Source: Actinomycetota bacterium (lineage in GTDB: Bacteria > Actinomycetota > Actinomycetes > S36-B12 > CAIYMF01). Taken from it: a DNA stretch of 44,785 nucleotides. The stretch is from the NCBI GenBank assembly GCA_947455705.1, contig CANGPO010000014.1, positions 1 to 44,785 of the forward strand. The letters are read 5' to 3'. Shown here piece by piece: positions 13,094 through 18,356 of this stretch; the first letter of the stretch is position 1; each line of letters opens with the position of its first letter. The position numbers and the translations under genes were made by a program. Under the pieces are notes generated by a model. It did no database searches and was not told the origin of the DNA. It was given only the letters and a program-made list of their open reading frames with translations.

Positions 13094-14875
13094 CTAATCT
13101 GCGTCACGCCAACTGCGCCACAGCGCAGCGTATGCACCATCAGCGGCTACCAACTCATCGTGGCTGCCCAACTCGCTGATCAAACCATGCTCGACGACGG
13201 CAATTCGGTCGGCGTCGTACGCGGTGTGCAAGCGGTGAGCGATAGCGATGACGGTGCGTCCTTCGAGTACAGCATTCAGGGATCGCTCAAGGTGTCGGGC
13301 GGCACGGGGATCAAGAAGTGATGTGGCCTCATCAAGGACGAGGGTGTGTGGGTTAGCCAAGATCAGACGGGCAAGGGCGAGTTGCTGCGACTGGCCGGGG
13401 GATAGGGAAAACCCACCTGAGCCGACTTCGGTATCGAGCGCCTCGGGGAGAGTTTCGACCCAAGGCGAGGCATCCACCGAGTCAAGTGCAGACAGGATTT
13501 CCGCATCACTGGCATCTCGTTTGGCCAGCAACATGTTGTCGCGCATGGTGCCGACGAACACGTGGTGTTCCTGATTGACCAGTGCTACCTGGCTTCGCAC
13601 ATTTTCCGCTGGCATGCGCGCCAATTCGGCGCCGCCCAACTCAATCGAACCTGTGCGCGGCGCGTAGATACCAGCCATCAAGCGGCCAAGGGTTGATTTC
13701 CCGGCACCGGACGGTCCGACGAGGGCGAGGCGTTCACCTGGCGCAACGTCAAGATCGATTCCGTGCAGGACGTCCTTACCGGCTCGATAGCCAAATCGCA
13801 CATCGTCAACGACGAGGCGGTCGTCGAGTGGTTCGAGATCGGAGTCGGTCTCTGGGTCTTGAACCTCTTGCACCCCAACGAGCCGAGCAAGTGATGCTTG
13901 GCCTACTTGGATCTCGTCGTACCACATCAGCATTTCGTCGACCGGCTCAGTGAGCATCTGAGTCAGAAGTAGACCGGTGGTCAATTCGCCGAGCGAAATC
14001 GTTCCGTGAATAACCAAGATTCCGCCGAAGCATAAAACTCCGGCCAGTGGCAGAAGATATCCAGCCTCGATTGCGGGGAACCAGCTACATCGAAGCCACA
14101 GTGTGTAGCGCTCCCATTGCACCCATCGATGAATCCGTCGATCAGTCTCAGCGATGCGCGTTTGTTCGAGTTGGTATAGCTCGATGGTTCGTCCTGAATC
14201 AACTGTCTCAGCAACTGACGAGGTCACCGCGGCGTAAGTGGCTGATTCGGCGCGATAGGCCTGCGGGGCACGACGGAAGTACCACCGCGATGAGAACAAG
14301 ATTGGCGGCACAGCCAGCAGCCAAGTGAGGGCAAGGATCGGAGCTGACACGACCATGGCGACGGCTACAAACATCGCAGTGACAAGGGAAATGGTGATCT
14401 GTGGAACGGCATCTCGCACTGCGTGGTTGAGTTTGTCGATGTCGACCGTAGCGCGTGAGACGAGATCGCCGGTACCCGCTCGCTCAACGACCCCCGTCGG
14501 CAGTGAGACAGCTCGCTTGAGGAAATCCTCGCGAAGGTCGGCAAGTACTTCCTCGCCAAGAATGCTCGCTCGCAGTCTCGTGGCTCGCGTAAACACGGTC
14601 TGGATTACTAGCGCAACCACGAAGATGCCGGCGGCCATGTCAATGCCCATGCCGACACTTCCGGTTGCCAAACTTTCGACGAGTGCGCCGAGCACGAACG
14701 GGCCGACGAGCCCAGAGATCGAAGCGACGGAGTGAAACCCAACGACGGCGGTGAACATCCTGCGATGTCGTTTCAACAGTGAACGCACATACCGTCGAAT
14801 GGTTGCTTCCTGGGCGATCGGCAGCGCGGTACCCGTCAACGTTGATGCGGCTACTGCATCCTCTGGAGGCATCAT
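13094..14875 (-). CDS. ABC exporter half-transporter, subunit A (functional Walker A, altered signature)
   Basis: The 593-residue type-I exporter half has six membrane segments (about 40-310) and an ATPase domain (about 350-590). Visible motifs are Walker A GPSGAGKS (387-394), Q-loop Q435, signature LSPGQ (491-495, normally LSGGQ), Walker B LVLDEA (E516) and H-loop H547. It overlaps its upstream partner by 4 nt (ATGA), so the two almost certainly form a heterodimer. Its intact Walker A pairs with the partner's intact LSGGQ to make the one working ATP site. Substrate unknown; relatives export drugs, lipids or peptides, and actinobacterial siderophore importers of the same fold also exist. Confidence 0.9.
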   Translation of the reverse strand: MMPPEDAVAASTLTGTALPIAQEATIRRYVRSLLKRHRRMFTAVVGFHSVASISGLVGPFVLGALVESLATGSVGMGIDMAAGIFVVALVIQTVFTRATRLRASILGEEVLADLREDFLKRAVSLPTGVVERAGTGDLVSRATVDIDKLNHAVRDAVPQITISLVTAMFVAVAMVVSAPILALTWLLAVPPILFSSRWYFRRAPQAYRAESATYAAVTSSVAETVDSGRTIELYQLEQTRIAETDRRIHRWVQWERYTLWLRCSWFPAIEAGYLLPLAGVLCFGGILVIHGTISLGELTTGLLLTQMLTEPVDEMLMWYDEIQVGQASLARLVGVQEVQDPETDSDLEPLDDRLVVDDVRFGYRAGKDVLHGIDLDVAPGERLALVGPSGAGKSTLGRLMAGIYAPRTGSIELGGAELARMPAENVRSQVALVNQEHHVFVGTMRDNMLLAKRDASDAEILSALDSVDASPWVETLPEALDTEVGSGGFSLSPGQSQQLALARLILANPHTLVLDEATSLLDPRAARHLERSLNAVLEGRTVIAIAHRLHTAYDADRIAVVEHGLISELGSHDELVAADGAYAALWRSWRDAD

Positions 14876-16635
14876 GATGATGTCACCTCCTCGCGGGTGA
14901 CGACTGCCCGGTAATCGTTGTTGCCGTGCAGCAGTTCGCGATGGCGACCAGTCGCGGCAACCTTGCCATCGATCACCAACACCACGATGTCCGCGCGGTC
15001 GAGAACCAAGGGTGAAGAGGTCATCACTACGGTCGTCATGCCGGCGCGAAAATCGACGAGGTTGCCTGCAATCCGAGCCTCAGTGTGTGCGTCGACTGCA
15101 CTTGTGGGTTCATCGAGAACGAGGATCGGTGCGTCGGCCAGAAGTGAGCGGGCAAGTGCGAGTCGTTGACGTTGACCACCTGATAACGAACGGCCGCGCT
15201 CGGTGATCATCGCGTCCATCGGATCGCCACCACCGCTCGAGGTATCAACCAAGCTGTCGAGTACATCTTCGGCCGACGCGACCTCGATCGCTTCGGCGAT
15301 GGTGATGCGTCCGCTGCCTGGTACCTCCAGCAGCTGACGCAGGGTTCCTGAAAGAAGCGCAGGATCTTTGTCTTGGACCAAAATCACATCGCGTAATTCG
15401 TCGCGTGGGATCTGACCCAGAGCGATGTCGCCGAGCAGTACGTCAAGACCGGTAGCGTCGATACCGGCCAGCCGAAGTGAGATCTCGTCAGCAGTTGATT
15501 GCTCTGCGCAGACGACTGCGGTCAAGATCCCCGGTTCAATCGTCAGGCCAGAGATCGGATCCGAAAGGCGCGCCATGGTGACATCGGGAGCGTGTGCATC
15601 ACGTGGCGCCGATTGGTCGTCACGGACCAGGCTAAGCACCCGGATCACTCGCCCGGCAGATACATAAGCCTTGGTTCCAGCCTCGGCGGCCTCCATGAAG
15701 ATGCGTAGCGGCATGAGCAGAAATGCCGAGTATCCATAAAACGCAACGAGTTGGCCGACAGTGATCGTGCCGTTTTGGGCTAGGTGGGCTCCGACCCATA
15801 CGACGGTTACGACGAACAGACCCGGCAGTGCCACCTGCATCGCCTCAAGCAGGGAGCGCAGTTTTGCCACATCGACGGCCGCTGACCGGACCTCCTGTGA
15901 GGCTGCCTGGAAACGCTCGATGAACAGATCTTCACCGCCGATTCCGCGTAGAACCCGTAGCCCGGCAACTGTGTCCGTGGCTAGTTCGGCCGCTCGACCG
16001 AGGCGTTTGCGCTGCGCAGACTCGCGCTTTTCCAGGGGACGTAGCAGTGGGCCGACGACGAGCCCGAGCAGGGGAATGCCAATCAATGCAATGCAGCCCA
16101 GTAACGTCGACGCCTGCAGGAGGATCACCGCGACGAGTAGGAATGCGAAAATCGCTCCAACTAATCGCCCGAGAACTTCCAGCGACCAGCCGATCTTCTC
16201 TACATCGCCGGATGCGACGGCCACGACCTCACCGGTTGCGATATCGCGACGCAGTTGGCCACCAAGGTCGACGGCCTTGCGCGTGATGAGCTGTTGGATT
16301 CGACTTGATGCGACGACCCAGTTGGTGACAGCCATCCGGTGCCGCAGGATTCCAGCAATGCTTTGAAATATTCCGAGGGCGATGATCACCGCTGTTGAGA
16401 TCAGGATCGTGTGTTGGTCGCCGATCTTTGCAGCCTCGATCACTCGACCAATTACCCCTGGCATCAGTGCCAATGCGCCAAGCCACAGTGAACCCCAAAT
16501 ACTGCCCAGCACGATCGTTTGCCACTGCTTGGAAGCCAACCATCGCAGGAATGACGATGCGCTCGCGAACTCCGGCTGACCTGGATCGGTCAGGGGCAGA
16601 TCGCGAAGCATTATCGGCGACATTGACGATGACAT
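14872..16635 (-). CDS. ABC exporter half-transporter, subunit B (Walker A destroyed)
   Basis: The 587-residue partner has the same membrane domain (about 40-320) and an ATPase domain with LSGGQ (484-488) and Walker B LVLDEP (E509). Where the Walker A loop should be, residues 374-384 read [11 protein letters not shown], so the G-x4-GK-S/T nucleotide loop is gone, and the H-loop His is replaced (MTSSP, about 539-541). With the partner's altered LSPGQ this makes the second ATP site inactive on both faces. Degenerate sites are known in heterodimeric exporters, but loss of the Walker A lysine is more extreme than usual. The reading frame is intact, so this is not a pseudogene. Start uncertain: GGGAGG lies only 2 nt before the ATG at 16635, with another ATG 12 nt on. 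Confidence 0.9.
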
Positions 16636-16781
16636 GGCCTCCCGAGCCTATTGGGTGGGTGCCCGATTCGTCGCATCAGTTTTGGCTAGGCGGGCCGACG
16701 GGGTGCGGCTCAAACGCGGAGGCGTTGAGCCACTACGATTCCAGTATCCATCCCCTCACCAGAAGGGCCTGTGATTCTCAG

Positions 16782-18356
16782 GTGACTGCAACTGCCCACC
16801 GCCCGGTTCTCGTTGTGGATTTCGGCGCGCAGTACGCCCAACTCATTGCCCGTCGAGTCCGCGAGGCGCACGTCTTTAGCGAGATTGTGCCGTCGACGAT
16901 GACGGCCGCGCAGATGGCGTCGAAGAACCCGGCAGCGATTGTGCTTTCCGGTGGTCCGTCGTCTGTTTATGTCGAGGGCGCCCCGCAACTTGATCCGGCC
17001 GTGTTCGACATGGGGGTTCCGATCTTCGGGATTTGCTACGGATTTCAGGCGATGGCGCAGGCACTCGGTGGGGATGTCGCGCGCACGGGTCTGTCGGAGT
17101 TTGGCGGTACGACCTTGACGGTTACCGATCCGTCGTCTGCCCTATTTGCTGGGACGCCCGCCGAACAAACGGTGTGGATGTCGCATGGTGATTCGGTTCA
17201 CCGCGCACCTGATGGTTTCGCGGTCACTGCGATGAGCGATGGCGCGCCGGTTGCTGCATTTGAAGATGTTGCGCGTCGGTTTGCAGGAGTTCAGTTCCAT
17301 CCAGAGGTTCTGCACAGCCAACACGGCCAGGCCGTGCTTGAAACGTTCCTTCATCAGATTGCAGGCCTCGAACCGTCGTGGACGGCGTCAAATGTGATCG
17401 ACGAGCAAGTCGCATCGATCCGGGCGCAGGTCGGCGACAAACTCGTGATCTGTGGTCTGTCCGGTGGCGTTGATTCCGCCGTCGCCGCCGCTCTGGTGCA
17501 CCGTGCGGTTGGCGACAACTTGACGTGCGTCTTCGTCGATCACGGACTTTTGCGTAAGGGTGAGCGTGAGCAGGTTGAGAACGATTACGTTGCCGCCACG
17601 GGTATCCGACTCAAGGTCGTTGACGCATCTGAGCGATTCCTTGCTGAGCTTGATGGGGTCACCGATCCCGAGGAGAAGCGTAAGACGATTGGACGTTTGT
17701 TCATCCGCGTGTTTGAAGATGCGGCACGTGAAGTAGTTGAAGAGGCCGGCTCGGCGGGTCAGGAGGTTGAGTTCCTAGTTCAGGGGACTCTGTACCCCGA
17801 TGTTGTTGAGTCCGGTGGCGGTACGGGAACGGCGAATATCAAGAGCCATCACAATGTTGGTGGCTTGCCAGACGATTTGCAGTTCGCGTTGGTCGAGCCG
17901 CTGCGGACCCTTTTCAAGGATGAAGTGCGCGCGGTGGGGGCGGAGCTTGGACTTCCGCCAGAGATGGTGTGGCGTCATCCGTTCCCGGGCCCTGGTTTGG
18001 CGATTCGCATTGTTGGTGCGGTATCGCGAGATCGATTGGAGATTCTGCGCGAAGCCGATGCGATTGTGCGCGCCGAGGTTTCCGCCGCTGGTCTTGACCG
18101 TTCGATCTGGCAGTTCCCAGTGGTGCTGCTTGCTGACGTGAGATCTGTTGGTGTGCAAGGTGATGGTCGTACGTATGGGCATCCGATTGTGCTGCGGCCT
18201 GTCTCCAGTGAAGATGCGATGACCGCTGACTGGTCGCGACTTCCGTATGACCTCCTAGCCAAGATTTCGACGCGAATTACCAATGAGGTGCGGGAAGTTA
18301 ATCGGGTTGTGCTTGATGTGACGAGCAAGCCGCCGGGGACAATCGAATGGGAATGA
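16782..18356 (+). CDS. guaA: GMP synthase (glutamine-hydrolysing)
   Basis: GuaA aminates XMP to GMP using glutamine and ATP. The 524-residue protein has the class I glutaminase triad (C85 in GICYGFQ, H173 and E175 in FHPEV), the ATP-pyrophosphatase P-loop SGGVDS (227-232) and the dimerisation domain ending in KPPGTIEWE, the universal GuaA terminus. The GTG at 16782 gives the standard length; AGAAGGG lies 14 nt upstream, which is rather far, so the ribosome site is weak. It is divergent from the ABC pair across 146 bp. Its last four codons form the left arm of the 57-bp repeat described next. Confidence 0.97.

Follow-up and report, generated by a model that had tools for sequence, protein, structure and literature searches.

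A two-gene actinobacterial ABC exporter in which one half appears to have lost its phosphate loop

The DNA analysed here (the window, 44,785 nucleotides, contig C14 of a 2.98 Mb draft genome) carries two adjoining half-transporter genes on the minus strand, subunit B first and then subunit A, with the stop codon of B and the start codon of A sharing four bases (ATGA). Each chain has an exporter membrane domain followed by a C-terminal nucleotide-binding domain. The membrane domain (PF00664, cut-off 28) scores 105.7 bits (E 4e-30) in B and 99.4 bits in A, while PF00005 scores 38.9 bits in B (cut-off 25) with a match that spans only profile positions 95-137. A guaA gene (GMP synthase, 16773-18356) lies divergently beside B. 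The two genes and their motifs are as follows.

14872..16635, minus strand: subunit B, an ABC exporter half-transporter with a putative pseudo-nucleotide-binding domain (open frame, 587 aa)
15484..15510, minus strand: Walker A equivalent of B, CAEQSTADE, residues 376-384, aligned to GPSGAGKST of A (AlphaFold2: strand 371-376, loop 377-378, helix 379-390)
15361..15375, minus strand: Q-loop equivalent of B, QDKDP, residues 421-425, with Lys423 in the Gln column of the alignment
15172..15186, minus strand: signature LSGGQ of B, residues 484-488
15091..15123, minus strand: Walker B and D-loop of B, residues 505-515
15010..15021, minus strand: H-loop equivalent of B, TSSP, residues 539-542
13094..14875, minus strand: subunit A, the catalytic half-transporter (open frame, 593 aa)
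13691..13717, minus strand: Walker A of A, GPSGAGKST, residues 387-395
13571..13573, minus strand: Q-loop Gln435 of A
13391..13405, minus strand: degenerate signature LSPGQ of A, residues 491-495 (motif alignment and column entropies)
13310..13342, minus strand: Walker B and D-loop of A, LVLDEATSLLD, residues 512-522
13235..13237, minus strand: H-loop His547 of A

In the alignment of the two subunits the Walker A column reads ALVGPSGAGKST in A, and B has no Walker A there, within a frame that stays open over its 587 codons; the H-loop column reads MTSSP in B versus IAHRL in A, a Ser replacing the His. These losses, together with an A subunit that keeps its Walker A and H-loop His and carries LSPGQ, had been proposed in an earlier note on this DNA, and the alignment bears them out. 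The same note understated the extent of the damaged site: the Q-loop Gln of B is gone as well, and B lacks the stretch that bears the A-loop Tyr, whereas A has Tyr363. B retains LSGGQ and Walker B in the window, including Glu509, the catalytic glutamate. The window pair is altered at the A-loop, Walker A, Q-loop and H-loop of B and at the signature of its partner, while the Walker B Asp-Glu of B is kept. A keeps its A-loop Tyr, Walker A, Q-loop, Walker B and H-loop, and its signature alone is altered.

AlphaFold2 models of the monomers place the difference in the phosphate loop. B, modelled with 82 family rows (pLDDT 92.2), shows a strand at 371-376, a loop of two residues and a helix from residue 379; A, modelled with 53 rows (pLDDT 87.0), shows a strand at 382-386, a loop of six residues and a helix from Lys393. 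In aligned columns the helix of B begins three residues earlier than that of A. The A-loop hairpin is likewise reduced, from 354-364 and 367-377 in A (11+11 residues) to 357-359 and 364-366 in B (3+3). The folds closest to B (Foldseek, VIA-align) are chains of MsRv1273c/72c, TM287/288, BmrCD and TmrAB, with VIA-align Z of about 25-27, and its nucleotide-binding domain superposes on the ComA domain 3vx4_D with Z 26.8 (2.2 A over 221 residues). Judged by its predicted fold, B belongs to the type I (type IV) ABC exporter superfamily; in the model its overall fold is ordinary and its nucleotide pocket is remodelled.

Relatives were sampled within Actinomycetota at genus, family, order, class and phylum level, in samples that overlap and count the window's genome each time. 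B is matched in 10 of the 11 genomes of the genus sample (E 1e-30) and in 14/17 of the family sample (1e-60). In the larger samples the matching genomes are 21/148 at order level (1e-40), at least 162/394 at class level (1e-60) and 17/296 at phylum level (1e-60), fractions that may be low because 3 to 9 candidates were scored per genome; at class level motifs were read only in matches fetched as loci. Genome G001, which belongs to the genus and is 93% complete, gave no match to A or B under the thresholds applied. Among relatives that carry a title, those nearest to B are a bin from an uncultured bacterium, at 93% identity, and MAGs labelled Candidatus Nanopelagicales, Actinomycetes or Actinomycetota. 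A genome-contig search, of which the best 80 of 507 confirmed places were used, and the fetched genome loci together yielded 223 B rows, the window included, and 219 A rows; some genes are counted twice, and five of the A rows (ISAGQ) belong to another, neighbouring exporter.

The asymmetry recurs throughout these rows. A Walker A is absent from its expected position in all 223 B rows, whereas the signature SGG is kept in 223/223. By comparison, 212 of the 219 A rows contain GxxxxGK[ST], the other seven being cut by the locus end (six) or apparently split by a frameshift (one), and LSGGQ is absent from every A row that reaches the signature, the nearest being a single LNGGQ. Three B rows contain a chance GxxxxGK[ST], in each case 43 residues beyond where LSGGQ begins, in the segment that separates Walker B from the H-loop, and a Lys occurs within the 12-letter Walker A segment in one B row, at its final letter. 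An intermediate with an intact Walker A was sought in the genus-to-phylum samples and in the best 80 of the 507 genome-contig places, and none was found among the 223 B rows; the lineage-wide check proposed in the earlier note thus revealed no close homologue with an intact loop. On the evidence of these sequences, the absence of a P-loop from B is fixed throughout a large family of actinobacterial exporters. Pairs are present in named Streptomyces and Kitasatospora strains, and a plasmid search returned 10 records with relatives, all below 60% identity and without an informative name. StrV/StrW or RamA/RamB (AmfA/AmfB) of Streptomyces are candidate members of the family.

The loss of several motifs could in principle mark B as a decaying pseudogene or as the product of a sequencing or assembly error, a reading to which we give next to no credence. 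The frame is open, the same substitutions occur in independent genomes, among them 9/9 of the other same-genus B sequences read, and B co-occurs with A. Comparison with the 93% relative (L010) gives dN 0.054 and dS 1.07, a dN/dS of about 0.05, and B is under purifying selection. Given this ratio and a loss shared by the 9/9 same-genus sequences and by 223/223 B rows, error and pseudogene decay were both rejected. The nucleotide-binding domain of B has evolved faster than that of A (mean pN 0.220 versus 0.090). The Walker A equivalent (residues 372-390) has a mean pN of 0.138 across 36 same-genus pairs, against 0.220 for the whole B domain; as this segment is less variable in the genus than the domain around it, it may do something beyond being lost.

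B and A also travel together. In 125 of 134 loci the gene immediately downstream of B is A, the remainder being seven without room and two in which none was found; among the 80 genome-contig search loci this holds for 79, and in the single miss (L062) the sequence ends 633 bases beyond B. A quick maximum-likelihood tree of 119 rows sets B (82 rows) and A (32 rows) apart, each by a branch with an SH-aLRT of 100; the tree included the motif columns, every second non-redundant A row and five paralogue outgroup rows, some of them long-branched. From these data the pair appears to have been inherited as a unit, and the asymmetry would be older than the sampled diversity. The neighbourhood is less constant. 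guaA stands beside the pair in 8/80 genome-contig search loci (the relatives L031-L037 and L049, each from a MAG or an uncultured bin), the Streptomyces pairs L054 and L064 are flanked by PNGaseA and YdjM genes, and a paralogue B/A pair of genome G201 (L251:7619-11184) adjoins peptide-synthetase, thioesterase and PLP-enzyme genes. The surroundings of this paralogue pair suggest export of natural products by some family members; since the neighbourhood varies among clades, no substrate is proposed from it.

Column entropies were computed on non-redundant sets of 82 B rows and 53 A rows, 40 of which reach the Walker B and H-loop columns. For B, 208 references were reduced to 203 distinct sequences and to 81 kept at less than 70% mutual identity, after exclusion of matches below 150 bits, of those spanning fewer than 450 query residues and of those with internal stops; for A, 10 of 62 non-redundant rows were removed manually, including some that a locus end truncates and one, L184, that comes from another exporter. 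In A, Tyr363, Gly387, Gly390, Gly392, Lys393, Thr395 and Gln435 are invariant (the Walker A residues and Gln435 in 53/53 rows), as are Asp515, Glu516 and His547 (the last three in 40/40 rows reaching their columns). In B, the invariant residues are Ser485, Gly486 and Gly487 of the signature and Asp515 of the D-loop (82/82). As the alignment assigns them, the invariant residues of A and B together build one site, in which the LSGGQ of B is presumed to act on the ATP bound to A. The drifted residues belong, on the same assignment, to the other composite site: in B, the Walker A equivalent, which averages the 70th percentile of variability, and the Q-loop and His columns; in A, the signature (55th percentile) and the D-loop (45th percentile), whose Asp is Gly in 11/40 rows. 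The claim that the losses are complementary, with one composite site intact and the other destroyed on both faces, is strongly supported by these patterns, as is the one-site engine that the earlier note derived from it, both at the level of sequence.

Some residues of B depart from this simple two-site split. The earlier note was right that B keeps LSGGQ and, in the window, Walker B, but family-wide the latter part does not hold: Asp508 is kept in 32/82 rows, and the other 50 have V, H, I or Q there. Parsimony on a tree that was also quick and included the motif columns counts four changes between Asp and the lost states and assigns them no direction. The Asp-Glu is kept in all 89 nearer-relative B rows, and the catalytic Glu column is E in 66 and D in 16 of the 82 rows, a constancy that is hard to explain with a wholly dead site. 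Ser541, beside the lost H-loop His, is invariant in 82/82 rows; like the Walker B Asp and the Glu/Asp column, it does not fit the split. In several of the most distant pairs (L190-L208) the D-loop of A lacks its Asp (ATAEAG) and the Walker B of B reads LVLHDP or similar, so the decay of the second site is further advanced in them.

The retained Asp-Glu of the 89 nearer relatives favours an alternative in which ATP remains at the second site and glues the structure together, as it does in MsRv1273c/72c and Pdr5, here through contacts outside the P-loop. Known degenerate exporters indeed show ATP at the degenerate site, or are proposed to have it there, in the passages of PMC12038006 and PMC8421411 that treat them. 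The window B, however, has neither the glycines, the Lys nor the Ser/Thr of a P-loop, nor the A-loop Tyr or the Q-loop Gln, and faces a degenerate signature in A; its predicted helix starts three residues early, at the position of the phosphates, with which it would clash as judged from a ligand-free model; and the Walker B Asp is itself gone in 50/82 non-redundant B rows. We regard a glue ATP in this family as unlikely.

The constraint on the loop within the genus, a Pro at column 379 in 63/81 rows, a Cys at column 376 in 34/82 and the invariant Ser541 would suit a different role for B, that of a sensor whose loop gates the active site, either by binding some other ligand or by a reaction of its Cys. 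Against this, the remaining 48 rows mostly have S, A or T at the Cys column (40/48), and the residual conservation could reflect a helix cap and strand packing; a sensor function appears quite improbable.

We think it probable, from the motif patterns and the models, that B and A constitute a heterodimeric exporter with a single ATP site, of which B is the pseudo-ATPase half. For this pair we infer heterodimer formation, the export direction and one ATP per cycle. A would supply the A-loop, Walker A, Q-loop, Walker B and H-loop, the LSGGQ and D-loop of B would clamp the ATP bound by A, and hydrolysis of that ATP would reopen the clamped site. In B the P-loop would be replaced by the extended N-terminus of the helix. 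The second composite site, formed by the Walker side of B and the LxPxQ signature of A, would then most likely be nucleotide-free and may act as a hinge or a permanently packed interface that relays the closure of the active site to the membrane domains.

In fold, in architecture and in having two half-transporters with asymmetric sites, the B/A pair resembles TM287/288, BmrCD, TmrAB and MsRv1273c/72c. TM287/288, BmrCD and TmrAB reportedly keep Walker A in their degenerate site. The B/A pair consists of adjoining half-transporter genes in different site states, with the degenerate signature in the catalytic A and the His loss in B. In MsRv1273c/72c ATP is bound at the degenerate site through the Walker A motif, which B lacks, and is proposed to act as glue, as the relevant part of PMC12038006 describes it. 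PMC7544095 names a missing catalytic Glu as the hallmark of a degenerate site, whereas the window B keeps this residue. OmrDE was considered as a system of the same kind and rejected, its motifs being described, in the corresponding section of PMC11109279, as kept apart from the catalytic Glu of OmrD.

The nearest precedent for B/A is Pdr5. Apart from its Lys, the Walker A loop of Pdr5 is said to be retained. Pdr5 and its fungal PDR relatives are single chains with the nucleotide-binding domain before the membrane domain, unlike B and A, in which the order is reversed and spread over two chains. They share with B/A one site altered on both faces and an intact signature in the degenerate half, going by the motif descriptions in PMC7756269 and PMC8421411. 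The same descriptions set Pdr5 apart from B: its Walker A is altered by a Lys-to-Cys change, its Walker B Glu is lost and its deviant site holds ATP in cryo-EM, the Pdr5 subfamily being termed the most extreme case in PMC8421411. In ABCG5/G8 the Walker A Lys of the degenerate site is likewise replaced and the signature changed, but by Lys to Arg only and in a different exporter type (type II in the naming of that review), according to the part of PMC7756269 that covers it. The statement of the earlier note that even degenerate sites usually retain the Walker A Lys is accordingly a fair rule, to which Pdr5 (Lys to Cys) and ABCG5/G8 (Lys to Arg) are exceptions on the same account (PMC7756269). 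The B/A family goes further than Pdr5 and MsRv1273c/72c in its loss of Walker A, and not at Walker B.

Loss of the loop was also assessed against 69 control exporter ORFs from related genomes, a non-random sample of 29 new loci and 40 hand-picked from a list, one ORF each; GxxxxGK[ST] is present in 67/69. One of the remaining two runs into the locus end and is truncated, and the other, L304 (genome G035, contig C102), with a K-to-R change, is another degenerate exporter half, its loop reading GPLRSGRST and its altered signature LSDIQ. The window's own genome has six further exporter-like ORFs that include a nucleotide-binding domain, and Walker A is retained in five of them. The sixth (L248:18-2492, minus strand, about 38517-40991 of contig C2 of genome G000) is an 825-aa ORF with weak exporter and ABC domains and, at its C-terminus, a cyclic-nucleotide-binding domain; its phosphate loop has the sequence GDRGSSPDAL, and its signature, Walker B and H-loop also look degenerate. 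As the controls are mostly intact and L304 and L248 are degenerate, phosphate-loop loss is uncommon, yet not confined to the B/A family.

A full-text literature search, screened by titles and the starts of abstracts, did not find the family described; subscription papers lie mostly outside its scope, so this is no proof of novelty. Going by its motifs, the pair would be an asymmetric heterodimer like the known ones, the new element being that one half has lost its phosphate loop. What the degenerate site does in asymmetric ABC transporters is presented as an open question where PMC12038006 and PMC8421411 discuss it. In the examples that these papers treat the degenerate site still binds ATP, whereas B is apparently stripped of its phosphate loop and keeps mainly the residues that serve its partner. 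The B/A design may thus serve as a natural experiment on the need of such pumps for a second bound ATP. Should the second site prove empty, models that require an ATP glue there would not be general, and the family would provide ready-made one-ATP transporters for measuring coupling stoichiometry.
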